Below are positions 2,531 to 42,312 of a DNA stretch of 42,312 bases, one piece after another. The stretch is taken from NCBI GenBank assembly GCA_021846565.1, contig JAJZWS010000024.1, positions 1 through 42,312 on the forward strand. The letters are read 5' to 3'. The notes below the pieces were generated by a model. That model saw only the letters and a program-made list of their open reading frames with translations. It was not told the DNA's origin and did no database searches. The DNA comes from Bacillota bacterium (GTDB lineage: Bacteria > Bacillota > Sulfobacillia > Sulfobacillales > JAIMBI01). Numbering within the stretch: position 1 is the stretch's first letter; every line of letters begins with the position of its first letter. The translations under genes and the position numbers were made by a program.

Positions 2531-3691
2531 TTACGCCAATGCCTGACGAAAATCGGCAATGATATCCCCCGCATCTTCAATGCCAACCGATATCCGCACA
2601 ACGCTTGCGTCGATGCCCACGGCCACCTTCTCCTCGGGAGAGAGTTCACGGTGAGAAGCGACCGCAGGATGCGAGACCGTGGTGGACACGTCGCCAAGGC
2701 TCGGGACGAACCGCACCAGTTGCAGCGTCTGGATCATGCGCTGTACCGCGCTGAAGCCGCCATTGAGGGACAGGGACACAATTGACCCGAACCCGCGCGT
2801 CAGGAGGCGCTGCGCCAGCCCATGGTCGGGATGGGACGGCAGGCCCGGGTAGTACACCCGCCGCACTGCCGGCATGCCCTCCAAGGCGTGCGCCAGTTGG
2901 AGCGCGTTGGAGCTTGACCGGTCCATACGGAGAGCCAGCGTCCGCGCACCGCGCAGGGCCAGCCAACTTGCAAACGGGTCCGGGGTGAACCCGGCGGAAT
3001 CCACAATGCTGTTCACGGACGCGATCCGCTCGCGGGAGCCGGCTACCACACCCAGAATGAGGTCGCTGTGGCCCCCAATGAACTTGGTCACGGAATGAAC
3101 GACCAGGTCGGCGCCCCAGGTGGCCGGGCGTGCATGAAAGGGGGTGGCAAAGGTGTTGTCCACCAACACGGGCACGCCGTGGGCGTGAGCCATCGCGATC
3201 AGCTCCTTCAAGGGGCTCACGCGACCCAGGGGATTAGAAATACTTTCCATGACCAAGATAGCCGGCGGTCCGCTGAGCGCGGCATCCATCGCCTCCGCAT
3301 CGTGGGTATCGACCCACTCCATCCGGTATCCGAACGGCGTGAGGAGATTGCGTGCGATGCCTACCGTGCCGCCATATATTTCGCGGGCCAGCAAGATGCG
3401 CGACGGCCTGGGCATCAACGCCAGAATGGCCGCAAAGAGGCCGGCGGTGCCGGAGGCAGTGACCACGGCCGCCTCGGTATCCTCCAATGCGGCGATCAGC
3501 TGCGCAAGTCCCTCGAAATTGGGATTTCCCCCTCGCGTATAGGAGTACCCCTGACGCTCACCGCCCAGCAAGGCATCCACTTCATCGATGTCGCGAAAGG
3601 CATACACCGACGTCTGAAAGATGGGAGGGGATACGGCGTTAATAGGGGTCGCAGTCTCCGAAGGACTCGCGGCCCTCGTGTAGAAGTCCAT
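2531..3691 (-). CDS. Trans-sulfuration-type PLP enzyme (cystathionine gamma-synthase / lyase family), copy 1
   Basis: 386-residue member of the Cys/Met metabolism PLP family (fold type I), which makes or breaks C-S bonds in cysteine, homocysteine, cystathionine or methionine. Visible signatures: YTRGGNPN (51-58) for cofactor phosphate contact, YGG (106-108), VDNTFATP (177-184) with the Asp that pairs with the pyridine nitrogen, and the cofactor lysine Lys203 in SVTKFIGGHSD. Start at ATG 3691: AAGGAGG lies 5 bases upstream, whereas the longer frame (3709) runs through that site. A probable own promoter is 50 bases upstream. It follows a second copy of the family on the same strand. Sequence alone does not separate gamma-synthase, beta/gamma-lyase and O-acylhomoserine sulfhydrylase. 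Confidence 0.92.
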   Translation of the reverse strand: MDFYTRAASPSETATPINAVSPPIFQTSVYAFRDIDEVDALLGGERQGYSYTRGGNPNFEGLAQLIAALEDTEAAVVTASGTAGLFAAILALMPRPSRILLAREIYGGTVGIARNLLTPFGYRMEWVDTHDAEAMDAALSGPPAILVMESISNPLGRVSPLKELIAMAHAHGVPVLVDNTFATPFHARPATWGADLVVHSVTKFIGGHSDLILGVVAGSRERIASVNSIVDSAGFTPDPFASWLALRGARTLALRMDRSSSNALQLAHALEGMPAVRRVYYPGLPSHPDHGLAQRLLTRGFGSIVSLSLNGGFSAVQRMIQTLQLVRFVPSLGDVSTTVSHPAVASHRELSPEEKVAVGIDASVVRISVGIEDAGDIIADFRQALA

Positions 3692-3741
3692 GGCGGCCTC
3701 CTTGTGCACCCGTTTGGGCGTGGTGAGTCTCTATGCCCCGT

Positions 3742-3771
3742 ATCATCCGAGAGCGCGTCCCCAACCGTCAA
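3742..3771 (-). promoter_or_regulatory. Candidate sigma-70 promoter for the first PLP gene
   Basis: On the minus strand TTGACG (3771-3766, 5 of 6 to consensus) is followed after 18 bases by GATGAT (3747-3742, 4 of 6). It lies about 50 bases before the ATG at 3691, in the 264-base gap after the second PLP gene, so copy 1 can be transcribed independently of copy 2. Confidence 0.45.
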
Positions 3772-3955
3772 CTGCCGGTCCGTGCACGGCCGCCACGATC
3801 GCGGACGACCGGGGAGCGCGGACTCTCCCGCCCCCTGTTGGCTGGCCACGGGCACCCCTTTGGGCCCCCCACAAACGACCATCGGCCCACCGTGGGAGCC
3901 GTCGGAATGTCGGCGTTCTCCAGCGATCCCCACAGAGTCGACGGCGAAGCTGTCC

Positions 3956-5149
3956 CTACTGCGCGTGACGGGCCCGCTTCAGAGCCTGGCCAAGGTCCAC
4001 AAGCAGGTCGTCGGGGTCCTCAAGCCCGATCGACAGCCGGATGAGCCCCGGGTGAATTCCCGCGATCCGACTTTCGTCTGCGGTCAGTGAGCGATGGGTC
4101 AGCGTGGACGGCTGTTCAACCAGAGATGTCGTGTCACCGAGGCTGACGGCCCGCGAAAACAGTTCCAGGCCATCCATGAAATCATCCGGTGACACATCCG
4201 GCGCCAGTTCAATCGCCATCATCCCACCGGCCTGGCCCCCGTGAAAGTGGTCGCGCACCCACCGATGCTGCGGATGGTTGGCCAGACCTGGATAGATCAC
4301 GCGACCGTATGAGGCCATATCGGCCAGTCCTTCCGCGACCGCCAGTCCGTGGCGGCTGTGTGCGTCCATCCGGAGCGGCAGTGTGGCCAACCCGCGCCAG
4401 AGCATATACGAAGCAAAGGGACTGGCGATGCTGCCCATTTGGCTGACCAGTGCCTTGACCGGAGCCAGCGCCTCTATAGTGCCCGACACGGTCCCCGCCA
4501 GCGTGTCTCCGTGACCATTCATGTATTTTGTGGCCGAATTCACCACCAAAGTGGCTCCATCACCTAATGGTCGGTAAAGATATCCTGTCGCAAATGTATT
4601 GTCCACAATGAGGGCAATTCCTCGTTCCTGACACAATGATCCAATTGTATCTAGCGGAGGTACAACCATGCCTGGATTTGCAATTGTTTCCACAATAATC
4701 GCTCGCGTCTTAGACGATATGTGGGACTTAATTTCATCGATGTTGGTCATGTCAACAAAGGTAAAGGTGAGTCCGTAAGCATCTCCCAGCCCATGGCGTA
4801 CGGCGTACGTGCCCCCATACTGCACGGGGCTCATCAGCACTTCATCGCCCGGCCTGACCAGCGACAGCAATGCCGCGGAGATGGCGGCCATGCCGGAGGC
4901 CAGGACGAGACTGCTGGCCGCGCCTTCCCACACGGACACGACCCGGCTCGTGGCATCTGTCGTGGGGTTCCCACTTCGCGTGTAAACGTAGCCGGGATGT
5001 TCGCCTCGCGCGACTTGGGACCCCTCCTCGTATTGCTCAAAGCGGAAGCTGGATGTGAGATACAATGGGGGAGTGAGCGACTCTCCGAAGGTGCTGGGAC
5101 CCCGGTCATGAGCGTGAAGCGCAGATGTTTGTCGCTGTGGCATAAGCAT
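3956..5149 (-). CDS. Trans-sulfuration-type PLP enzyme (cystathionine gamma-synthase / methionine gamma-lyase family), copy 2
   Basis: 397-residue second member of the Cys/Met PLP family, clearly diverged from copy 1 downstream. Signatures: GYVYTRSGNPTTD (53-65), YGGTYAVRHG (111-120), VDNTFATGYLYRPLG with Asp183, and cofactor Lys208 in NSATKYMNGHGD. Start at ATG 5149, preceded by AAAGG with a 5-base spacer; the longer frame to 5500 has no family sequence. A second ATG two codons later is possible. It is divergent from an APC permease. The codons between about 4540 and 4790 are unusually AT-rich (78 G+C in 180 bases at 4561-4740) compared with the flanks. Substrate (cystathionine, O-acetylhomoserine or methionine) cannot be fixed from sequence. 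Confidence 0.92.
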   Translation of the reverse strand: MLMPQRQTSALHAHDRGPSTFGESLTPPLYLTSSFRFEQYEEGSQVARGEHPGYVYTRSGNPTTDATSRVVSVWEGAASSLVLASGMAAISAALLSLVRPGDEVLMSPVQYGGTYAVRHGLGDAYGLTFTFVDMTNIDEIKSHISSKTRAIIVETIANPGMVVPPLDTIGSLCQERGIALIVDNTFATGYLYRPLGDGATLVVNSATKYMNGHGDTLAGTVSGTIEALAPVKALVSQMGSIASPFASYMLWRGLATLPLRMDAHSRHGLAVAEGLADMASYGRVIYPGLANHPQHRWVRDHFHGGQAGGMMAIELAPDVSPDDFMDGLELFSRAVSLGDTTSLVEQPSTLTHRSLTADESRIAGIHPGLIRLSIGLEDPDDLLVDLGQALKRARHAQ

Positions 5150-5344
5150 CCCTGCCTTTCCATCACACTTGAGCCGCCCGTGGGCTGGCCCGCCTCTACA
5201 TCTTGACACATTTTCATAGGGCGGCCGGGCGCGACAGGCACCAAAGAGGTGAGTGTTCGTCGCCATAGGGCGCCTTGTGGCCAGTCCGAGAGAGGCGGTC
5301 CTCCTTAACGGGACTTTCCGCGCTCGCACGAGCCGTGGCGCCTC

Positions 5345-5452
5345 GATGGCTCGCTTCATAGGGGATCGCGGGCGCCAGCTGTATTTTCTAGCGTGCGTCG
5401 AGGGCGGTCGCCAGGCGTTCATCCGAGCTCCCCTGGACGCTCTCTGCTCATA
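5345..5452 (-). promoter_or_regulatory. Possible S-box-like (SAM riboswitch-like) leader, tentative
   Basis: In the long 5' region of the copy 2 PLP gene the minus strand reads AGAG (about 5448) then an AGGGGA, then GGATGAAC, then GCCTGGCGACC (ending about 5405). This resembles the conserved 5' core of the SAM-I riboswitch (AGAG, GAGGGA, TGAA, GGCAACC), with some differences. CCAGG and CCTGG inside it can pair as a stem. I cannot find a convincing P1 partner or an intrinsic terminator downstream, so this is only a candidate, supported by the sulfur-metabolism gene that follows. Confidence 0.22.
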
Positions 5453-5567
5453 CGGAACCAAGCGCGCAATCAATTCTTCGTGGACGTCCCTGGAGCTCAC
5501 TTCGACAGCCGACCCACCTGTGTGTTGAGCCGCAGAAGCGGATGTTCAGCCGATGTGCAGAATTGGC

Positions 5568-5596
5568 TTGACATTCGGGGGGCGCGGCACCATGTT
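5568..5596 (+). promoter_or_regulatory. Candidate sigma-70 promoter for the APC permease
   Basis: A perfect TTGACA (5568-5573) is followed after 17 bases by CATGTT (5591-5596, 3 of 6). The permease start is about 155 bases further on, leaving room for an untranslated leader. The -10 match is poor, so confidence is moderate to low. Confidence 0.4.
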
Positions 5597-5752
5597 AAAA
5601 GTGGAACGTGTTGGCGTCATCGGTCCAGCAGGCTCGATCGGCGCCGACCCGTCCACTTACTGCGAATTCGTCAACGAGCGCAGAGCCAGGCCTCAATCCC
5701 GGCGTCTGCGACCAACCGGGTTCATACACGGTCCCGAAAGGGGAACTCTGCA

Positions 5753-7381
5753 TTGGCCAGCGTTCGAAAAGTTGCGGCCCCCTCCCAGGGGACCGGACTG
5801 CGACACGTGATGAGTCGATACGACTTGACGATGGCCAGCTTTGGTGGCGTTATCGGGTCCGGCTGGCTGTTCGGGGCGATGTACAGCGCCCAGTATGCCG
5901 GTCCTGCCGCGACACTGTCCTGGATCATTGGAGGAATCTTGATTTTCATCTTGGCCCTGCCTTTCACGGAAATGGTGTCGGCGATTCCGGAGGCAGGCGG
6001 CATCAACCGGTATCCGCAGCTCAGCCACGGTGGCCTCGTGTCTTCCGGCGTGTCTTGGGCGAACTGGATCGCCTACGCCATGACGGCGCCGATCGAAGCG
6101 GAAGCCGTCACCCAGTACGCCGCGGGATATATTCCCGCGCTGTACTCGAACGGCGTGCTGACCCCGTTCGGCCTCGTGGTGGCGGCGCTGCTGGTGTTGG
6201 TGTTCTTCATCATCAACTACTACGGTGTGAAGCTGTTCGCTCGCGTGAATACGACGGTCACAACGATCAAGGTGATCATTCCGTCCATCACGATGGTCGT
6301 GCTCCTGATCGCCGGCTTGACCGGAGGCGGGGGGAAGAACTTCAGCGACGCGGCGGCTGGGGGATTCATGCCGTTTGGTATGCACGGCGTCCTCGTGGCC
6401 ATCTCGATCGGTGGAATTCTCTTCGCCTACACGGGGTTCCGGCAGTCTCTGGATCTGGCGGCCGAGGGCAAGAACCCTAAACACGATGTGCCGCGGGCCA
6501 TTATCACGGTTATTTTGTCCGCCATCGTGATTTACACCTTGTTGCAGGTCGCCTTCATCGTGGCACTGAGCCAGCCGGATCTAGTCAAAGGCTGGGCGCA
6601 CGTGAGCTTCTCATCGCCCTTTGCGCAACTGGCATCGGCTCTCAACCTTGGCGTCCTGGCAGCTCTCTTGTACGGGGACGCGGTGTTGTCGCCCGGTGGA
6701 ACCGGCCTCGTGTACACGGCCACCACGGCCCGAGTACTGTACGCGATTCCCAAGAACGGCTACGGCCCCAAAGGCCTCTTGAAGCTGAACACCCGCGGCG
6801 TGCCGAAGAACGGGATGCTGGTCGCCCTGGTGGTGGGACTGCTGGCACTGCTGCCCTTCCCGTCTTGGGGCGCGATGGTGGGCATCTTGTCGTCGGCGGC
6901 TGCGTTCACGTTCTCCATGGGCGGCATTTCGCTGGGCGGCCTCCGCAAGGTGGCGCCGGATCTTCCGCGCCCGTTCTCGCTGGGGAACCATGCCCGATGG
7001 GTCGGACCTGCGGCCTTCGGCATTGGCGCTCTGCTGCTGTTCTGGAGCGGCTGGCCGTTGGTCCCTCAGGTGTTGGGGGTGGTCGCGGTGGGGCTCATCA
7101 TCTACCTGTTCTATCGGCGTGTGAACAACCTCCCTGCTCGCGACCTGAAGGCCGGGGTGTGGATGATCGCCTTCATGGCGTTCGAAGCCCTCATGAGCTT
7201 CCTCGGATCGTTTGGGAGCGGGAACAAGAACATCATCCCCTTCCCGTTCGACACCATCATCGTGTTCTTGGGGGCGATCGCGATTTACTACTGGGGGGTG
7301 GCCTCGTCTTATCGAACCCAGGCCCTGGACGACTACCTGGCGGGTATTGACGTGGACTACTCGGAACTCTCCAGTGGGTAG
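5753..7381 (+). CDS. APC-family amino acid permease
   Basis: 542-residue secondary transporter of the amino acid-polyamine-organocation superfamily in the cytoplasmic membrane. The N-terminal family signature is intact: LRHVMSRYDLTMASFGG followed by VIGSGWLFGA, the glycine-rich unwound first helix that binds the amino group of the substrate. About 12 hydrophobic segments follow, with a typical loop ASALNLG and a short polar C-terminal tail. Start chosen at TTG 5753: AAAGGGG lies 9 bases upstream, and the ATG at 5810 would cut off part of the first conserved block; the longer frame from 5393 has no family sequence. Divergent from a sulfur-amino-acid PLP enzyme, so methionine, cysteine or cystathionine is a reasonable but unproved substrate. 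Confidence 0.9.
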   Translation: MASVRKVAAPSQGTGLRHVMSRYDLTMASFGGVIGSGWLFGAMYSAQYAGPAATLSWIIGGILIFILALPFTEMVSAIPEAGGINRYPQLSHGGLVSSGVSWANWIAYAMTAPIEAEAVTQYAAGYIPALYSNGVLTPFGLVVAALLVLVFFIINYYGVKLFARVNTTVTTIKVIIPSITMVVLLIAGLTGGGGKNFSDAAAGGFMPFGMHGVLVAISIGGILFAYTGFRQSLDLAAEGKNPKHDVPRAIITVILSAIVIYTLLQVAFIVALSQPDLVKGWAHVSFSSPFAQLASALNLGVLAALLYGDAVLSPGGTGLVYTATTARVLYAIPKNGYGPKGLLKLNTRGVPKNGMLVALVVGLLALLPFPSWGAMVGILSSAAAFTFSMGGISLGGLRKVAPDLPRPFSLGNHARWVGPAAFGIGALLLFWSGWPLVPQVLGVVAVGLIIYLFYRRVNNLPARDLKAGVWMIAFMAFEALMSFLGSFGSGNKNIIPFPFDTIIVFLGAIAIYYWGVASSYRTQALDDYLAGIDVDYSELSSG

Positions 7382-7706
7382 GAGCCGGCGACCTCTTCAT
7401 TGAACGCGATTGAACGTGAAGTAGCGAACGGTCGGTGACCAGCCATACGGCCTACGGACGCCCAGCCGGAGGAATCTCCGTCTGGGCGTCCGTAGGCCGT
7501 GCTGATCGGAAGCAGCCACCGCTCCCCGCCCCACCTGCTCTCGGTTTGCCTTGCCCGATCGGTTCCCATCCTTCTCGCGGCTCCCGTCGTAGCTCACCGA
7601 GCGCAAGACCGTCTCCGGCCCACCGGGGTGGCGGTCGTGCGCGGCCTGGACACCGGCCACATACATTGCCTCAGCCATCGCCTTACGACGGAACGCAACA
7701 ATGCGG
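7382..7706. other. Intergenic region between convergent genes
   Basis: About 325 bases between the ends of the permease (plus) and the FAD oxidoreductase (minus). It carries the long hairpin at 7447-7500; I recognise no gene. Open frames have no family resemblance. Confidence 0.5.
7447..7500. terminator. Long near-perfect inverted repeat, probable bidirectional terminator or structural element
   Basis: Left arm 7447-7465 and right arm 7482-7500 are perfectly complementary over 19 bp. Inside, CGGAG (7467-7471) and CTCCG (7476-7480) extend the stem, giving 24 pairs with a single C/T mismatch (7466/7481) and a GAAT loop (7472-7475). It sits between convergent genes where a terminator is expected, but neither side has a T-run, so it is not a textbook intrinsic terminator. 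Confidence 0.6.
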
Positions 7707-8834
7707 CTACAAAGACCCACCCTGCCCCGGTCTTAACGTGAAATCCTCGTTCGGATAACGATGCGGCGACAGGTGCGATGATGGCGGCACCATCCCCAAC
7801 GCCATCTCGGCAGCGAATTCTCCGATGGCGGGGCCCCGTTTAATGCCGAATCCGTTGTCCCCACAAGCCACCCACACCCGGTCGCAAACCGGTCCGATGA
7901 GGGGGCGGCGATCAGGGGTGGCGCCGCAGAGTCCGGCCCACGAGCGACGAAGGCGCGCCTGCGCCCCGTACGAGGAGAGACTCATCACCCCTTCCGCCAC
8001 CGACTGCTCAAACTCAGGGTCTCCGGTGGTTCGATACGCATCGGGATCATGCTCCCATAGTTGGGTCCCATCTCCGACTAACACATTGCGCGGTCCATCC
8101 GGTACGATATACATATCGGTGGCCATATCCCGCACGATGGGCAGATGATATCCTGATGGAAATTCTAATGAGGCCAACTGCGTTCGGTAGGGGCGAAACG
8201 GGAGATCCATCCCGGCCGTTTGCAGCAACTTTCGCGTCCATGTCCCCGTCGCCAGCAGCACCCTCGCGGCATGGATCGTGTCGTTGGGACCCTGGAGCTG
8301 AACTTCCCGGTCGTCAACCCGCAGGGTGGCCACTGGGTACGACAGCTTGACCGTCAGACCGAGCGTCTTGGCCATGCCCAAGACGGCAAAGGCGTAAGCC
8401 GTTGGATTCACGTGCCAATCACGCGGGGTCCATACGCCAAATATCGGGTGCGCCACGCGGTCCAACTCGGGAAAGCGGCGACGAATCTCCTCAGCCGACC
8501 ACACCTCGACCGGAATCCCGCGCTCCCTGAGGCTCCCCTCGTGTTCTGCCACTTGACCCTGGTAGCTCGGAGGGAAGAGTGAGAGCATCCCATGCTCCCG
8601 AATCATGGTCTGGTCGCCGCTTGCAGACTGGGCTTCGCGAAACAGCGCCCGGCTGCGCTGCACCCACCGCTGGTCGTCGGGGGTGGCCACCATATCCGAC
8701 ACGATTGCCCCCGACTTGGCACTGCTCTCGCTGGCCACCGCCGGACGAGATTCGAGCAGCAGCACCGAGCCTTGCTCTGCCCTTACCGCCGCCAGAGCAG
8801 CCGCGACACCCCAAACGCCGCCTCCGACAACCAC
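7707..8834 (-). CDS. DAO-type FAD-dependent oxidoreductase (glycine/D-amino acid oxidase family)
   Basis: Flavoprotein of the DAO family, which oxidises amines such as glycine, sarcosine or D-amino acids. The dinucleotide-binding motif opens the protein (VVGGGVWG), followed by LLLESR at the end of the second strand, SAKSGAIVSDM for flavin contact, and the C-terminal GLCGATPDRRPLIGPV and GDNGFGIKRGPAIGE blocks. The GTG at 8834 lies inside the first beta-strand of the fold: residues YNL just upstream are in frame and look native, but no ATG, GTG or TTG exists before the in-frame stop. See the upstream mini-frame. No operon partner; convergent with the APC permease. Substrate unknown. Confidence 0.85.
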   Translation of the reverse strand: MVVGGGVWGVAAALAAVRAEQGSVLLLESRPAVASESSAKSGAIVSDMVATPDDQRWVQRSRALFREAQSASGDQTMIREHGMLSLFPPSYQGQVAEHEGSLRERGIPVEVWSAEEIRRRFPELDRVAHPIFGVWTPRDWHVNPTAYAFAVLGMAKTLGLTVKLSYPVATLRVDDREVQLQGPNDTIHAARVLLATGTWTRKLLQTAGMDLPFRPYRTQLASLEFPSGYHLPIVRDMATDMYIVPDGPRNVLVGDGTQLWEHDPDAYRTTGDPEFEQSVAEGVMSLSSYGAQARLRRSWAGLCGATPDRRPLIGPVCDRVWVACGDNGFGIKRGPAIGEFAAEMALGMVPPSSHLSPHRYPNEDFTLRPGQGGSL

Positions 8835-8869
8835 TAAGTTGTACGCGTCGCAACACCTCGCATCCTCAT
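8834..8869 (-). other. Eleven-codon mini-frame overlapping the oxidoreductase start
   Basis: ATG 8869 opens an 11-codon frame (MRMRGVATRTT) whose TAG stop (8836-8834) shares a base with the GTG of the oxidoreductase (TAGTG). An AGGG stretch precedes the ATG. This geometry fits translational coupling of a leader peptide, or alternatively marks a one-base frameshift that separated the true start from the gene. Confidence 0.3.
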
Positions 8870-9484
8870 GCCCTGTCCCGCCGCCGTTCCCTCAGCGGAT
8901 GCGGCTCCGGGGTTCCGTCCGAGACGAATGCCGCGGGAAGTCTCCTCAATGCGTGAGCCTGGCCTCAGGATAGCACCCCACCAGGCACCCGACGCACTCC
9001 ACGCCGCTTGATCCGCGAAAACATCCCGCAAGCTCCTGAGTGCTCGAAGCACCGGGCCGGCACAGGATGGCACGGCAGGCGGCCATTCCAGCGGACGTGG
9101 GCCGATATCCTGGTGCTGGCGGGTCACCTCGCTCCCTGTCCGTGGACGCGTCGGGTGGAGCAGCGCACCTCTGCCCCGCGACGTTGGGTACTCTCGCTCG
9201 GAGCACCGTGGCGTCGGGTACAATACTGGTGGTGCGGATCTCATGGCCGATGTCTTTCGGACGCATGTCCCTCTGTGGGAGCTGTTGCGCCTCATGTTGT
9301 TTGCGCTCGGCGCGAAGGCTTTTCGGCAGCCGCCGGTGGACTGCGCACCGTTCCCGTTCCTGGTGGGCTCCCCCGGGCCCGCACCCTGGGACCTTTCTTG
9401 CGGGCGCCCGCCCCCGGACGACAGAGCGGGAACCGACGTCCGCTCCCACCGGAGGCGACGGCGGCCGAGAACGGCGGTGATCAG
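8870..9484. other. Intergenic region with possible relic sequence
   Basis: About 615 bases between the divergent oxidoreductase and MFS genes. A TACAAT lies at about 9220, 22 bases before an ATG (9243) whose first 28 residues (MADVFRTHVPLWELLRLMLF...) look protein-like, but that frame soon turns into low-complexity arginine/proline sequence. It could be the start of a decayed regulator; I cannot assign it. Confidence 0.3.
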
Positions 9485-10654
9485 GTGAGGACCGCTTGGT
9501 TTGGTTTGCTCGCCGCGTCAGGACTGGAAGCGTTCTTTCTCCTCGTGATGGCTGCGTATGCCCCACTGTATGTCATGGAGCGCTTGCACGGGTCGTACTT
9601 CGTGGCCAGCCAGTCGGTCGCCTGGCCGTACCTCGCCACCTTTCTCGGATCAAACCTGTGGGGGGCTCAGTCCCGACGCCTTGGACTGGACCGCCTGGTG
9701 CTCATCGGTCTAGTAGGTTACTTTGGCCTCGGTCTGGTGGCGTTGCTGGCACGCACGGCGTGGACGCTGGTTGCCGGCCTCGGGCTCCTGACCTGCTTGT
9801 CCTCCGCCCTGGCGCCGGCGGCAATGGCGGCCATGACGCGCGCCGGCGGGGCCATGGGCAATCGGCTCGCCCTGCGCGTGCGCTGGCAAAGCGTGGGGTG
9901 GATCGTATCGGGCGTTTCGGCGGGATATCTCTACGGCCTGGGGCGCTATGGCTGGCCGCTGACTCTGGCCCTGTCAGGCACCCTCGCGCTCTTGCTGGCC
10001 GCCGTGCTGGCGGCGAGGCACGATCGGGATGGGGTTCTGGCACGCTCCCCCCGCTCTCCCTCGCAAACCAGCACGTGGCGAGGCCTCATGCCCCTGCTGG
10101 TCGTGGTCGTGCCGGTGTTTCTTGTGACGGCAGGGAATGAAGGCTTTTTTGCCTCCTTCTCCCTGTATCTGCGCTACATTCGACTCCCTATCGCTTGGGT
10201 GGGCTGGTCCGCCGCGATCAGCACGGGGGTGGGAGCACTCTCGGTGGGCTGGGTCGGCCGGTTCGCCGACCGCACGGGTGGCCGGGCCGTGTTGGGCTAC
10301 GTGCTGATCGGGTACGCCGTCATGTATAGCGCTATCGCGGTATCCCATTCTGCGGTGGTGGCAGTGCTGGCGTTCTCCTTGCCTCTCTACCCGTTCTTGA
10401 TGGTGGGCAGCCAGCGTGCCGCGGCGGAACGGGTGGCCCTGCACCACCACGGCGCGGCGATGGGGTTCGTCAACGGCCTGGCCGGGCTCGCGACGGCCGT
10501 CGGGATCAGCATCATGGGTTTGGGCGACACGCGTTTTGGGCCGGCCTTCGAGCCGTGGGGGGCCACGATCCTGGTTCTCCTGGCGATTGCCGCCCTGGCA
10601 CTGTTCGCCGTGCTGGGGCCGCGGACCGAAGACCCCTTGCGCAACACAAGCTAA
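9485..10654 (+). CDS. Major facilitator superfamily transporter
   Basis: 389-residue membrane protein with about 12 hydrophobic helices in two halves joined by a polar loop (about residues 178-197, DRDGVLARSPRSPSQTSTWR). The loop after helix 2 (WGAQSRRLGLDR) and its counterpart in the second half (GRFADRTGGRAVLG) match the MFS signature G-x-x-x-D/R-R-x-G-R. The C-terminal half has the typical AAMGFVNGLAGLATAVG helix. Start taken at GTG 9485, where similarity to the first helix begins; the binding site (GGCGGTGA) is weak. Sequence upstream in the same frame (9008-9484) is not MFS-like. Drug or metabolite exporter; substrate cannot be told. Convergent with the racemase/OSB-synthase homologue. 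Confidence 0.88.
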   Translation: MRTAWFGLLAASGLEAFFLLVMAAYAPLYVMERLHGSYFVASQSVAWPYLATFLGSNLWGAQSRRLGLDRLVLIGLVGYFGLGLVALLARTAWTLVAGLGLLTCLSSALAPAAMAAMTRAGGAMGNRLALRVRWQSVGWIVSGVSAGYLYGLGRYGWPLTLALSGTLALLLAAVLAARHDRDGVLARSPRSPSQTSTWRGLMPLLVVVVPVFLVTAGNEGFFASFSLYLRYIRLPIAWVGWSAAISTGVGALSVGWVGRFADRTGGRAVLGYVLIGYAVMYSAIAVSHSAVVAVLAFSLPLYPFLMVGSQRAAAERVALHHHGAAMGFVNGLAGLATAVGISIMGLGDTRFGPAFEPWGATILVLLAIAALALFAVLGPRTEDPLRNTS

Positions 10655-10655
10655 C

Positions 10656-10678
10656 GGCCACCCCGCGCGAGGGTGGTC
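10656..10678. terminator. Hairpin between convergent genes
   Basis: GGCCACCC (10656-10663) and GGGTGGTC (10671-10678) form an 8-pair stem with one G-T wobble and a 7-base loop, directly after the MFS stop codon. There is no T-run, so it is a weak terminator candidate. Confidence 0.35.
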
Positions 10679-10802
10679 GTCCCCGGCGTGCGATGCGGAC
10701 GCCTCCCACACTGCCTCAGCCGTTTGCCTGTGAGGCTAACGGCCCGGCACGGGGTCCATCCGATGGGCCGTCATCCTGGGCTATCCAATCGCCCCATGCG
10801 GC

Positions 10803-11936
10803 CTAGCGGGGCTGAATCTCTTCATGACCGGTCCGATAGCGCTGCAGGCGGGCCCCATCGGGCGCCACGCCAATTCCCGGGCCGGTCGGCACCATGAGCG
10901 TTCCGCGGTCCGTCAGCCGAAACGGCGGGTCGATAAGGTCCTCCGCAAAGTAGCGGTCGGACGCTGACGTGTCACCCGGCAGCACGAAGTTTGCCAGCGT
11001 GGTCAGGTGCAGATTGCCCGCCCGCCCAATCCCAGACTCCAGCATGCCCCCACACCAGACGGGGATGCCGTGCGCAGCCGCGATGTCATGAATGGCGCGC
11101 GCTTCGGCGAATCCCCCCACTCGGCCGGGCTTGATGTTGATGACGCGACAGGCAGCGATCTCGATGGCCTTTCGGGCATCCTCGCGCGTGCGAATGGATT
11201 CGTCCAGGCATACCGGGGTTTGGATGGCGCGCTGCAGGGTCGCATGATCGATGATGTCGTCCTCGGCTAGCGGCTGTTCCACCATCATAAGATCCAGTTG
11301 GTCCAGTTCCTTGAGCAGGGGGAGCTGGTCCAAGGTGTACGCGGAATTGGCGTCCGCCATTATCGGGGTGTCTGGCAAGGCTTCGCGGACCGCCGCCAGC
11401 GGGACGATGTCCATTCCGGGCCGAATTTTAATCTTGAGCCGCCGGTAACCCTGAGCCCAAAAATCCCGGGCCAGCGCGACCAAGTCGGCCGTGGTGGGCT
11501 GAATTCCGATCGAGACCCCGACGGGAATATCGGTGCGCGACCCGCCCAGCAGCTGATGGAGGGGTATCCCCGCTCGCCGGGCGAACCAGTCCCACACGGC
11601 CATCTCCAGGGCCGCCTTTGCCATCCGATTTCCGCGAAATGGTCGGAATCGGCGGCCCACATCCTCGGGTTGGACGATTGGGCCGGCAAACAGCCGTGGG
11701 GCCAATAGGTCCACAATCACGTGGTGAACGGTCTGGTTGGTCTCCTCGCTGTAGAGCGGCTCGTCGGTGGCAACCGTCTCGGCGTAGCCGGAAATGCCGT
11801 CCGCGTGCACCCCGACCACGTAGAACCTGCGCTCCAACTCTCTCCCGTACGACGTCTCGAAGGGGGCCTTCAGCGGCAGCATCACCTGGTCCAAGGTGAT
11901 GCGCTCCAGCGTTAAGGCATCTGCCGAGCCATCCAT
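10803..11936 (-). CDS. Enolase-superfamily N-acylamino acid racemase / o-succinylbenzoate synthase
   Basis: 377-residue member of the muconate-lactonising subgroup of the enolase superfamily. All catalytic residues are present: KxK at Lys168/Lys170 (RLKIKI), metal ligands Asp195 (MADANSAY), Glu220 (MMVEQPL) and Asp245 (CLDESI), and the opposite-face base Lys269 (NIKPGRVGG). Two lysines on opposite faces are what a 1,1-proton-transfer racemase needs, and the same active site makes o-succinylbenzoate for menaquinone. The GNAT gene upstream ends 6 bases before this ATG, the pairing known from N-succinylamino acid racemase operons, so racemase is the better guess; no other men gene is in the window. 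The hydrolase that completes that pathway is absent. Confidence 0.88.
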   Translation of the reverse strand: MDGSADALTLERITLDQVMLPLKAPFETSYGRELERRFYVVGVHADGISGYAETVATDEPLYSEETNQTVHHVIVDLLAPRLFAGPIVQPEDVGRRFRPFRGNRMAKAALEMAVWDWFARRAGIPLHQLLGGSRTDIPVGVSIGIQPTTADLVALARDFWAQGYRRLKIKIRPGMDIVPLAAVREALPDTPIMADANSAYTLDQLPLLKELDQLDLMMVEQPLAEDDIIDHATLQRAIQTPVCLDESIRTREDARKAIEIAACRVINIKPGRVGGFAEARAIHDIAAAHGIPVWCGGMLESGIGRAGNLHLTTLANFVLPGDTSASDRYFAEDLIDPPFRLTDRGTLMVPTGPGIGVAPDGARLQRYRTGHEEIQPR

Positions 11937-39805: not shown

Positions 39806-40930
39806 TCACAGGGAGCCGCGCTCATGGGGGCGGTCCCGCCCCATCGCGAGCCAGCGGCCGAGGTGGGCGGCGGCCTCCTCCGCCGCCCGGGCACTGTCGC
39901 GCATCGCCATCGACCGGCTCGTCGGTCCCAGCGTGAGCGGAAATGCCGCGGCGAGGCCCGCGCGATACACCGCATCCATAGCGTCCCGGTCGCCAAATTC
40001 GCCCACCAGCGCGACCACGGGCGTGTTCGCCACCCGTGCGTGCGCGAGAACGGTTCCCACAACCTTGCCGTCCAGCGACGAGGCGTCGAGGCGCCCCTCT
40101 CCCGTGATGACGAGGTCCGCCCACGTCAGCTGTGACTCCAGCTGCACCAGCTGGGCGATGGCCTCCGCACCAGGCGTCAGCACTCCGCCAAGCGCGGCAA
40201 GTGCCATACCGGCCCCGCCGGCCGCCCCCGCCCCCGCCAGCGTCCGAAGCGGCCGGCCCACCACCTGCTCAAGACACTGGCCCAGCACATCCATACGCTC
40301 CGCCAGCACCGGCAAGTCAGCGGGAGCCACCCCCTTCTGCGGACCAAAACGGTAAACCGCCCCGCGCGGTCCCCCGGCGGGCACATTCACGTCGCACCAG
40401 CACGTGAGCGGAATCGGATAGGGCGGCACGTCGAAAATCTGGGGTGCCGTCGGGAGGCCCTCCGGCGATGCCTCGGACCTCGCGCCCATGGCGTGGAGCA
40501 AACCCCATCCGCCATCCGTCGACCCGGTGCCCCCCAGTCCCAGCCACACGCGTCGGGCGCCCCCGTCGCGGGCGGCCACCAACATGTCACCCAGTCCCAC
40601 ACTGGTGGCACGGGCTGCGTCGCGGGGGCGCTGCCGCTCCGGCACCCATCCGGGTCCGTCGGCTGCCTCCAGGACCCACGTGTGGTCCGGCAGCACCAGC
40701 ACCGGAGCCTGACGAGGCCGCCCGTAGGCGTCTCGGACGCGGATGGTCCGCAGGTCGCCGCCCAGGGCGGCCCGCACCACGTCGCGCGTGCCTTCGCCGC
40801 CGTCAGCCAGGGGGCACGGGGTAACCTTGGCGTCAGGCATCGTCCGTTGGAGTCCCACCGTAATCGCCGCCGCCAACCGCCGCTGGTCCAAGGCCCCCTT
40901 CAGCGAGTCCGGTGAAACCAGCACGTTCAC
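39806..40930 (-). CDS. Glycerate kinase (GarK/GlxK family)
   Basis: 374-residue kinase phosphorylating D-glycerate, giving 2-phosphoglycerate in most members of this family. The family motifs are intact: SPDSLKGALDQRRLAAAI, PLADGGEGTRDVVRAALGGD, WLGLGGTGSTDGGWGLLHAM, CDVNVPAGGPRGAVYRFGPQ followed by KG, and ADLVITGEGRLDASSLDGK. GTG 40930 lies behind a GGAGATGAGG box. It starts 21 bases after the small aconitase-X subunit gene and is read with it, so its substrate may come from that dehydratase's pathway. It offers a direct contrast to the degenerate homologue at 18759-19811. Confidence 0.94.
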   Translation of the reverse strand: MNVLVSPDSLKGALDQRRLAAAITVGLQRTMPDAKVTPCPLADGGEGTRDVVRAALGGDLRTIRVRDAYGRPRQAPVLVLPDHTWVLEAADGPGWVPERQRPRDAARATSVGLGDMLVAARDGGARRVWLGLGGTGSTDGGWGLLHAMGARSEASPEGLPTAPQIFDVPPYPIPLTCWCDVNVPAGGPRGAVYRFGPQKGVAPADLPVLAERMDVLGQCLEQVVGRPLRTLAGAGAAGGAGMALAALGGVLTPGAEAIAQLVQLESQLTWADLVITGEGRLDASSLDGKVVGTVLAHARVANTPVVALVGEFGDRDAMDAVYRAGLAAAFPLTLGPTSRSMAMRDSARAAEEAAAHLGRWLAMGRDRPHERGSL

Positions 40931-40951
40931 ACCCTCATCTCCTCTCCCCGT

Positions 40952-41362
40952 TCAGGTCACCAAGCGAAGATCGCGCTTGGCCGGTCGCAACTCAGCCCAT
41001 CGGGCGGTTCGCAGCTGCTCCCAGGCCTCGACCGACAGCCCATCGGCTATGGGCACCCCCGCCATCACCGCTCCATGCACCATAACGGAATTGGTGATGC
41101 CAAAGATGAAGGCCAACGGCGCGAGCCCTCGCGAGTGCAGGTCCAAAAAGGCCCATCCAGCCGCCACACCCCCTTTGGCCGTCGGGAAGGCGACGATCGA
41201 CCCGGCCAATTGGTGCCCGTACAGGCTGTGTCCCACGCGCGTAACCACGCCGGTCGCACGGTCCAGATCATAGCGCGGACTAAACCCGTCGGCGGACACC
41301 AACAGCGGGCCCTCGACCCGAGCGCCGTACGCCCGCGCCAGCTTGACGAATTGCTCGCTCAT
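40952..41362 (-). CDS. Aconitase-X small (swivel, DUF126) subunit
   Basis: 136-residue swivelling domain of an aconitase-X type dehydratase. Typical sequence: SADGFSPRYDLDRATGVVTR, GHSLYGHQLAGSIVAFPTAK, GGVAAGWAFLDLHSRGLAP, and ITNSVMVHGAVMAGVPIAD. In the archaeal mevalonate pathway the homologous pair is phosphomevalonate dehydratase; bacterial fused forms dehydrate cis-3-hydroxy-L-proline. Split subunits are seen here. The ATG overlaps the stop of the large subunit (ATGA), and glycerate kinase follows after 21 bases. Substrate cannot be predicted. Confidence 0.88.
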   Translation of the reverse strand: MSEQFVKLARAYGARVEGPLLVSADGFSPRYDLDRATGVVTRVGHSLYGHQLAGSIVAFPTAKGGVAAGWAFLDLHSRGLAPLAFIFGITNSVMVHGAVMAGVPIADGLSVEAWEQLRTARWAELRPAKRDLRLVT

Positions 41363-42312
41363 GGCACCAGCCTCCCTGCTACGGCGGCGGCCACGCAGTC
41401 AGGCGTGCGTCGCAGAATCGGACGATAGGGATGTGCCCCCACGATGTTGGCCAACTTGGTGGAATTCGTCACCACGGTGTGCCAGCCATGTTCACGTTGG
41501 AGCCGGTCGATGGTCATCAGGTAGAAGCAGACCCCCGTCAGCACCAGCCCGCCGGCTTTTTCGATCGTCTGAATGTAGCCCAGCTGGTGCGCCCACTGAT
41601 AGTAGGCTTGGTTGGTGGTCACAATGAGGCGCGTGTTGGCGTGCACGTGCTGGCCATCCAGCAGCTCCGCCAAGCACGCCAACTCATAGAGCGACTGCTG
41701 CGGGCCGCTGAACACCACCAGGTCAACGTCCGTCGTGTTCAGGTCGGCTCCATACGAGGCGTACACTTCTTCCAGCTCCTTGGCGCCCACGGTCAGCGTC
41801 CGCTGCCGGCGGGCACCCTCGGGGTTCATCGCGGCCCAGTCTGGCGTCACGTCGCGTGCCCCAAACAGTGCAATGGATCCATAGCTCGCCAGTGCTGCCG
41901 CGAGATGCTTCAACTGATCCGCCGACCGCGTGAGGGAGGGGCCGATCCCGTCAAAGAAGGGGACGTCCCAGTAGCTGGGCGAACGCCGCCCCACCCACGC
42001 TCCCAGGGCCCCCCAGTCCGCATAGTCCGCCAGAGGCGTGGTCACCTGCACGTAGGTCGTGGCCCGCCGATGTCGATCGAGGTGGTAGCCGAACGCGGGC
42101 ACCCGCCCCGTGATGCCGGCCGCCAGGGCTGCGGGACCGGCCTCAAAGTTGGACCGGCCCCCCAAGACACTGTTGGCAAAGCAAACGGCCCCGGTGTCTC
42201 CCCATGCCAGATGTTCGCCCACGTGCGGCTGATACACGCTTTGGTAGTTGATGCAGGTGTCCACGTTGAGGACCCCCAGCGCCCGAAGGCGCTCCCGCAT
42301 CACCACCTGCCG
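41359..42312 (-). CDS. Aconitase-X catalytic (large) subunit, N-terminus outside window
   Basis: Partial gene: the frame is open through the right edge, so GTG 42306 is probably internal and some 80 N-terminal residues are missing by comparison with the usual length of about 400. Conserved blocks include NVDTCINYQSVYQPHVGEHL, AWGDTGAVCFANSVLGGRSN, FEAGPAALAAGITGRVPAFG, and near the C-terminus KAGGLVLTGVCFYL followed by TNSTKLANIVGAH. Cysteines in DTCINY, AVCFAN and TGVCFY are candidates for the Fe-S cluster ligands of this superfamily. The stop overlaps the ATG of the small subunit. With glycerate kinase it forms an operon for an unidentified hydroxy-acid. Confidence 0.88.
   Translation of the reverse strand, partial: RQVVMRERLRALGVLNVDTCINYQSVYQPHVGEHLAWGDTGAVCFANSVLGGRSNFEAGPAALAAGITGRVPAFGYHLDRHRRATTYVQVTTPLADYADWGALGAWVGRRSPSYWDVPFFDGIGPSLTRSADQLKHLAAALASYGSIALFGARDVTPDWAAMNPEGARRQRTLTVGAKELEEVYASYGADLNTTDVDLVVFSGPQQSLYELACLAELLDGQHVHANTRLIVTTNQAYYQWAHQLGYIQTIEKAGGLVLTGVCFYLMTIDRLQREHGWHTVVTNSTKLANIVGAHPYRPILRRTPDCVAAAVAGRLVP

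Follow-up and report, generated by a model that had tools for sequence, protein, structure and literature searches.

A Two-Subunit Aconitase-X with an Altered Active Site Precedes a Glycerate Kinase in a Putative Hydroxy-Acid Catabolic Operon of a Sulfobacillus Relative

Introduction

What does an aconitase-X (AcnX) do when it is encoded next to a glycerate kinase? The AcnX family has two assigned functions so far, the dehydration of cis-3-hydroxyproline (C3LHyp) and that of phosphomevalonate (MVA5P), and neither explains a kinase for glycerate. The question is raised by a 42,312-base stretch of DNA, hereafter the window, which is the entire contig G000:C118 of an acid-mine Sulfobacillus relative and which carries at its right end the genes of a split AcnX followed by that of a glycerate kinase. 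The original prediction drawn from these genes held that the AcnX may act on a hydroxy-acid whose catabolism yields glycerate. In the reading developed here, the three genes are best understood as the 3′ end of a catabolic operon whose upstream genes are known from relatives, and the AcnX would dehydrate a hydroxy- or dicarboxylic acid and so supply a route from an aldehyde to D-glycerate, an interpretation to which we assign a probability of roughly 0.5. The AcnX itself falls into a broad clade apart from both characterized dehydratases, with active-site changes that are uniform in the rows examined.

The Locus and Its Operon

All three genes lie on the minus strand. The AcnX large subunit (domains 1-3; 41359-42312) is represented by its C-terminal 317 codons, being cut by the contig end, and scores 252.6 bits against PF04412 (gathering score 31.5) over profile positions 104-399 of 400; since the match begins at position 104, about 98-100 N-terminal residues are missing. 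The small subunit (the swivel, domain 4; 136 aa; 40952-41362) scores 75.3 bits against PF01989 (gathering score 27). Direct reading of the sequence confirms that the large-subunit stop and the small-subunit start share an ATGA, and that the GTG start of the kinase (374 aa; 39806-40930) lies 21 bases (40931-40951) past the stop of the small subunit, as had been claimed. By its profile scores the kinase is a clear member of the PF02595/TIGR00045 glycerate kinases, at 294.5 bits for PF02595 (cut-off 23.3) and 249.3 bits for TIGR00045 (cut-off 168.45), and its best solved relative is 3cwc (E 1.5e-40). A second, divergent PF02595 protein of 376 aa (60.2 bits) is encoded on the same contig at 18759-19889 on the minus strand, and these two are the PF02595 matches found in the genome.

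Because the large subunit is truncated, statements on its first 98 residues rest on the full-length copy in the related genome G002 (locus L013), which is 96% identical to the window copy over the shared part, and on other aligned rows. A structural model of the G002 large subunit superimposes on 7cnr_A with Z 53.5 and rmsd 1.8 over 383 aligned residues, and that of the small subunit on 7cnr_D with Z 20.0 and rmsd 1.7 over 129. Membership in the AcnX family is thus supported by both Pfam domains, each above its gathering score, and by the AcnX fold.

As the window is a whole contig, there is no sequence past its right edge in its own assembly, and the upstream genes are seen through relatives. 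The order large subunit, small subunit, kinase is kept in four of the four genomes of the genus examined, that of the window included. The full form in the genus comprises a divergent GntR regulator facing genes for an aldehyde dehydrogenase (ALDH), a 3-hydroxyisobutyrate-dehydrogenase-family protein (HIBDH), an MFS transporter, the two AcnX subunits and the glycerate kinase, and all seven genes stand on one contig in G004 (locus L012). G002 has the segment from transporter to kinase. In G003, the regulator, ALDH, HIBDH, transporter and large subunit lie on one contig and the large subunit, small subunit and kinase on another, the two contig ends overlapping by exactly 127 identical bases inside the large-subunit gene. 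The protein families in G003 and G004 are Aldedh, NAD_binding_2 with NAD_binding_11, MFS_1, GntR with UTRA, AcnX and Gly_kinase. G004 has a further contig (L016) with the middle of a second operon copy, from the ALDH end to the large-subunit start, and in Sulfobacillus benefaciens AMDSBA4 an ALDH gene cut by a contig end is followed by HIBDH, MFS and AcnX large-subunit genes (AcnX identity 65%), after which the contig ends.

The three window genes are under purifying selection. NG86 dN/dS ratios, from two comparisons each, are 0.06 and 0.11 for the large subunit, 0.13 and 0.14 for the small subunit and 0.21 and 0.22 for the kinase; three of these six comparisons have a dS that exceeds 1. Together with the order conserved across the genus, this argues that the arrangement is not a product of chance.

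A Separate Clade of AcnX

The wider distribution of this AcnX was followed at several levels. In a sample of 398 genomes of the phylum, 30 (the window's own included) carry an AcnX at E <= 1e-20, the best of them in another genome being 38% identical, and of the 20 loci fetched from this sample none had the other operon genes except for one GntR hit. Within the order, 13 of 42 genomes match a profile of alignment A2, the strongest outside the genus being G432 (65%) and G435 (51%). The nearest AcnX among plasmid loci reach 39-43% identity; loci L071-L075 fall inside the window's clade and L076 outside. A scan of genome contigs with alignment A2 returned at least 395 related loci, of which the best 80 were examined: three are of the same order, and the remainder, at 41-52% identity, are mostly from Pseudomonadota, with Amycolatopsis, Arthrobacter, Paenibacillus, Rubrobacter and one member of the Methylomirabilota also among them. 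A GG motif in place of the general-base serine is present in 78 of these 80; of the other two, L140, which belongs to the clade by the tree, has no small subunit, and L079 has only a small-subunit start.

When 113 large subunits were placed in a tree, that of the window joined a clade of 86 rows with SH-aLRT 100 on a long stem (1.26), while the C3LHyp dehydratase of A. tumefaciens groups with loci L010 and L011 (SH-aLRT 96) and the T. kodakarensis protein lies elsewhere; the tree was made by a quick method with no bootstrap, and long branches are flagged both at the join of A. tumefaciens with L010/L011 and at the clade base. The comparison with characterized clades proposed in the original prediction therefore places the window's large subunit in a separate branch. 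The rows used for the residue counts below were chosen by the GG motif itself, of which the large-subunit tree is independent; these 87 rows contain two pairs of duplicate records (L013/L077 and L012/L078). As judged from its sequences, the clade is separate, mainly proteobacterial, and outside the branches of the C3LHyp and phosphomevalonate dehydratases. It is probably one of the bacterial AcnX types IIc-IIf, and our literature searches found no paper on its function.

Side observations were made on two other AcnX of the order. Locus L175 (G421; 2670-11137) holds another AcnX type, with a GS motif, whose gene cluster also encodes a FAD-linked-oxidase-like protein, an imidazolonepropionase-like amidohydrolase (these two assigned by eye) and a 658-aa protein in which histidinol dehydrogenase and imidazoleglycerol-phosphate dehydratase domains are joined. 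In G409 (L177) a similar-looking amidohydrolase lies nearby, and the AcnX large subunit is split across two reading frames.

A Changed Active Site

Landmark residues were taken from PMC8184944, and their numbering was checked on the reference rows of A. tumefaciens (At) and T. kodakarensis (Tk). The general-base serine (At Ser70/Tk Ser62) is glycine in all 87 clade rows, including the window, where it is Gly65 of a KGGVAAG motif (codon 41168-41170, minus strand), and serine in 22 of 22 other AcnX loci. The substrate-contacting position of At Trp35/Tk Leu27 is arginine in 87/87 rows, in the window Arg30 of an FSPRY motif (41273-41275, minus). A GDTG motif (Gly-Asp-Thr codons 42193-42201, minus) puts Asp-Thr-Gly in place of Tk Glu129-Ser130-Ser131 and At Glu292-Ser293-Asn294: the glutamate at the metal-bound water is aspartate in 86/86 clade rows (glutamate in 21 of the 22 other loci), the serine after it threonine in 86/86 (other loci: serine in 19, threonine in 3), and the third residue glycine in 86/86. 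The third cluster cysteine position (At Ser449/Tk Cys283) is glycine or alanine in 87/87 rows, glycine in the window; that of Cys510 is tyrosine in 87/87; and that of Tyr534 is isoleucine, threonine or asparagine, never tyrosine. Kept throughout the rows covering them are the other two cluster cysteines (Cys273/110, 86/86; Cys508/342, 87/87) and the catalytic lysine (Lys530/361, 87/87). The clade also has invariants of its own, namely aspartate at Tk Val49 (85/85) and the Phe, Arg and Tyr of FSxRY (87/87 each).

These residues bear directly on the two known functions. That the window's AcnX is a C3LHyp dehydratase is suggested by family homology and by an NCBIfam model that gives the truncated large subunit 150.9 bits, against a cut-off of 700 that applies to the fused protein. 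The five C3LHyp substrate landmarks, however, are replaced in the clade by Arg, Ala, Met/Val/Thr, Thr and Ile/Thr/Asn; Trp35, Ser70, Thr72, Ser293, Asn294 and Tyr534 are all changed in the window, and Asp203, whose position lies outside the window, is changed in the other clade rows from which it was read. A positive control is provided by G005 and G006, members of another genus of the same family, whose different AcnX (L011 and L010, respectively) keep all five landmarks, though not Cys510, and group with the A. tumefaciens enzyme. In G006, the genome whose neighbors were scanned, L010 adjoins genes for DHDPS, two proline racemases and a DAO-type oxidase, and these neighbors together with its landmarks make a hydroxyproline pathway likely there. 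For the window's AcnX, residues and tree lead us to reject C3LHyp dehydration as highly implausible.

A phosphomevalonate dehydratase of the archaeal-type mevalonate pathway would fit the two-subunit form, the fact that T. kodakarensis AcnX gives the large subunit its best score among solved structures, and the HMG-CoA reductase gene present in the genome (G000:C61, 10214-11425). Against this, in the phosphate-binding stretch of the T. kodakarensis enzyme Val49, Ser50 and Asn53 are changed, while 50 of 85 clade rows retain Gly48, and Cys283 is changed as well; the genes stand in a catabolic operon; and the UbiD-family decarboxylase PF01977 has no match in the genome, which is 95.67% complete, while 9 of 14 controls match. 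An HMG-CoA reductase without UbiD makes an archaeal mevalonate role unlikely, and with the residues and the tree added we reject this function too, at a probability close to nil. The claim that neither known AcnX role fits this locus was thus borne out by the position of the large subunit outside both branches and by the absence of most of their active-site residues.

A further alternative is that the pair no longer dehydrates at all and has become an isomerase, epimerase or lyase of a hydroxy-acid, its serine base being gone. The uniform replacements at the serine, the Glu-Ser pair, the third cysteine and Tyr534 all speak for this, and, according to PMC10040528, the glutamate is highly conserved in all AcnX and its replacement by alanine inactivated the P. 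aeruginosa enzyme. The retention of the remaining two cluster cysteines and the catalytic lysine speaks against it, and because these are kept, Lewis-acid chemistry on a hydroxy-acid is still likely; we consider the loss of dehydration unlikely.

Gene Neighborhoods Outside the Genus

Outside the genus, 81 clade loci were surveyed, of which 49 have more than 4 kb on both sides. Since a longest-ORF caller took antisense ORFs in GC-rich DNA, neighbors were counted by tblastn with selected queries, together with a scan, as one alignment, of 63 adjacent plus-strand proteins that had been picked by eye with near-copies left out. Within 5 kb of AcnX, TctC was found at 43 loci, amidohydrolase at 15, GntR at 12, acyl-CoA dehydrogenase at 11, sulfatase at 10 (L113, L118, L121, L146 and six others), ALDH at 7, SDR at 6 and HIBDH at 2, and 17 of the 63 adjacent proteins are TctC. 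Among 20 control loci, SDR occurs at 2 and the other neighbor families at none; as the controls were drawn from the phylum of the window, in which TctC may in any case be less frequent, comparing 43/81 with 0/20 gives no fair measure of enrichment. The frequency of TctC links the clade to carboxylate uptake and catabolism in general.

Gene context in other phyla does not converge on one pathway, with amidohydrolase and cupin, acyl-CoA dehydrogenase, CoA-transferase with a biotin-carboxylase set, sulfatases and aldehyde dehydrogenases at different loci. In Paenibacillus thalictri (L120, 10833-17871), for instance, AcnX is followed by SDR-like and MFS-like (by eye) proteins, a CoA-transferase, a PycB-like carboxylase subunit and an AccC-like protein (by eye), and in Arthrobacter L153 a PycB-like subunit occurs together with a thiolase-like protein.

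A Proposed Route to Glycerate

A small set of partner enzymes encoded in the operon of the genus points toward glycerate. The HIBDH most closely resembles the GarR and YihU types, its best solved relatives being tartronate semialdehyde reductase (1vpd) and sulfolactaldehyde reductase (6sm7); the transporter is closest to the galactonate family; and the ALDH is of a generic kind. The presence of these three in one operon with a glycerate kinase fits the catabolism of a hydroxy-acid ending in glycerate. In the proposed route, the MFS transporter would import the hydroxy-acid, and AcnX, with its aconitase fold, two cluster cysteines and catalytic lysine, would remove water from it, another residue having taken over as base from the lost serine, and the new arginine would hold a portion of the acid that may be a second carboxylate. 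At least one more step would follow before the dehydrogenases act on an aldehyde or semialdehyde (either tartronate semialdehyde or glyceraldehyde) to give D-glycerate, which the kinase would convert to phosphoglycerate for glycolysis. Two funnels can be envisaged: an aldaric acid could lead to tartronate semialdehyde and, through HIBDH, to D-glycerate and the kinase, or an aldonic acid could lead to glyceraldehyde and reach the same point through ALDH.

Several observations weigh against this route. With its general-base serine lost, AcnX might catalyze another reaction. None of HIBDH, ALDH and transporter reaches the cut-off of any NCBIfam model shown (8, 25 of 40 and 14, respectively); the HIBDH of G003, in particular, reaches 191.1 bits for tartronate semialdehyde reductase (TIGR01505, cut-off 340.75) and 195.9 bits for the sulfolactaldehyde reductase model (cut-off 348). 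In the window's own assembly, which was searched for HIBDH among the upstream genes, no close copy was found, the best being 31% identical. In the ALDH gene of G004 (L012, 5745-7181, minus), codon 240 of 479 is an in-frame TAG, which is either an assembly error or a sign of a broken gene; the other six frames there are free of stops and the ALDH frame of G003 is open. In G435, of the same order, transporter and AcnX genes are followed by GntR with no adjoining kinase. The original prediction had proposed a look beyond the right edge for transporters, aldolases or dehydrogenases, and the relatives supply the MFS transporter, HIBDH and ALDH but no aldolase gene in the operon; nor were matches to the GarL-type (PF03328) or Eda-type (PF01081) aldolases found in the window's genome at its 95.67% completeness. 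The carbon-cleavage step is therefore unaccounted for unless one of five PF00701 proteins of the genome performs it, and a non-phosphorylative Entner-Doudoroff-like route, with a PF00701 protein acting as aldolase in trans, is possible. A direct counterpart of the GarL-dependent galactarate pathway of E. coli was rejected, as no PF03328 was found.

Finally, at the 81 clade loci from outside the genus no glycerate kinase occurs, whether in the 5 kb around AcnX or in the rest of the fetched sequence, from which it follows that glycerate is not a general product of the clade's AcnX. The link between AcnX and glycerate kinase thus holds across the genus and, as far as seen, is limited to it. One explanation would be that the operon acquired the kinase in this genus alone, the substrate of the clade's AcnX being some widespread carboxylate that has no relation to glycerate and is in many cases taken up by tripartite tricarboxylate transporters; any glycerate would then come from a side branch or from an independent pathway sharing the regulator. 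The TctC genes near 43 loci and the widely differing neighbors favor this account, whereas the tight spacing, the constant order within the genus and the GarR-type enzyme in the same operon count against it, as does the limited number of loci with ample flanks on both sides; we regard it as rather unlikely, if by no means negligible. The original prediction is thus supported in part: the dehydrogenases and transporter of the operon agree with the hydroxy-acid route to glycerate that we prefer, while the lack of a PF03328 or PF01081 match in the genome and the limitation of the kinase link to one genus do not.

On a bolder and more tentative view, somewhat less probable than not, this whole AcnX branch, examined through the best 80 of at least 395 loci and found in Pseudomonadota, Bacillota and Actinomycetota among others, would represent a so far undescribed type of Fe-S dehydratase, or else isomerase, that acts on hydroxy-dicarboxylic or polyhydroxy acids. 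Its active site would have been rebuilt without the serine base, with Asp-Thr-Gly for Glu-Ser-Ser/Asn and with the invariant FSxRY arginine gripping a second carboxylate, and in the acidophile genus it would open an undescribed pathway from hydroxy-acid to glycerate. The clade bears on whether aconitase-fold dehydration works without a serine base, and its substrate, if found, would assign a function to probably hundreds of genes named only "aconitase X catalytic domain-containing protein."

Comparison with Known Systems

In E. coli, the garPLRK operon encodes an MFS transporter, a GarR-type reductase, a GarK-type kinase and the GarL aldolase. The operon of the window's genus likewise brings together an MFS transporter, a GarR-type enzyme and a glycerate kinase, but where E. 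coli has the GarL aldolase it encodes AcnX and an aldehyde dehydrogenase. Among AcnX proteins, the C3LHyp dehydratase of A. tumefaciens (7CNP) shares family and fold (Z 40.1) with the window's protein and likewise has no cysteine at the Cys283 position, in keeping with the statement in PMC8184944 that type IIa potentially has only two cluster cysteines; it differs in that its substrate landmarks are lost in the window clade and that the window genes do not stand in a hydroxyproline cluster. Type IIb, represented by T. kodakarensis (7CNR/7CNS), is similarly composed of two subunits of the same fold with two of the cluster cysteines and the catalytic lysine in common, whereas the window clade is without the serine base, Glu129, Ser130/131, the third cysteine and most of the phosphate-binding stretch, and lies outside its tree branch in a different gene context. 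Types IIc-IIf, to which the window clade probably belongs, are like it bacterial, made of two subunits and without the C3LHyp or MVA5P landmark set, and they have no known function according to PMC8184944 and PMC10040528.

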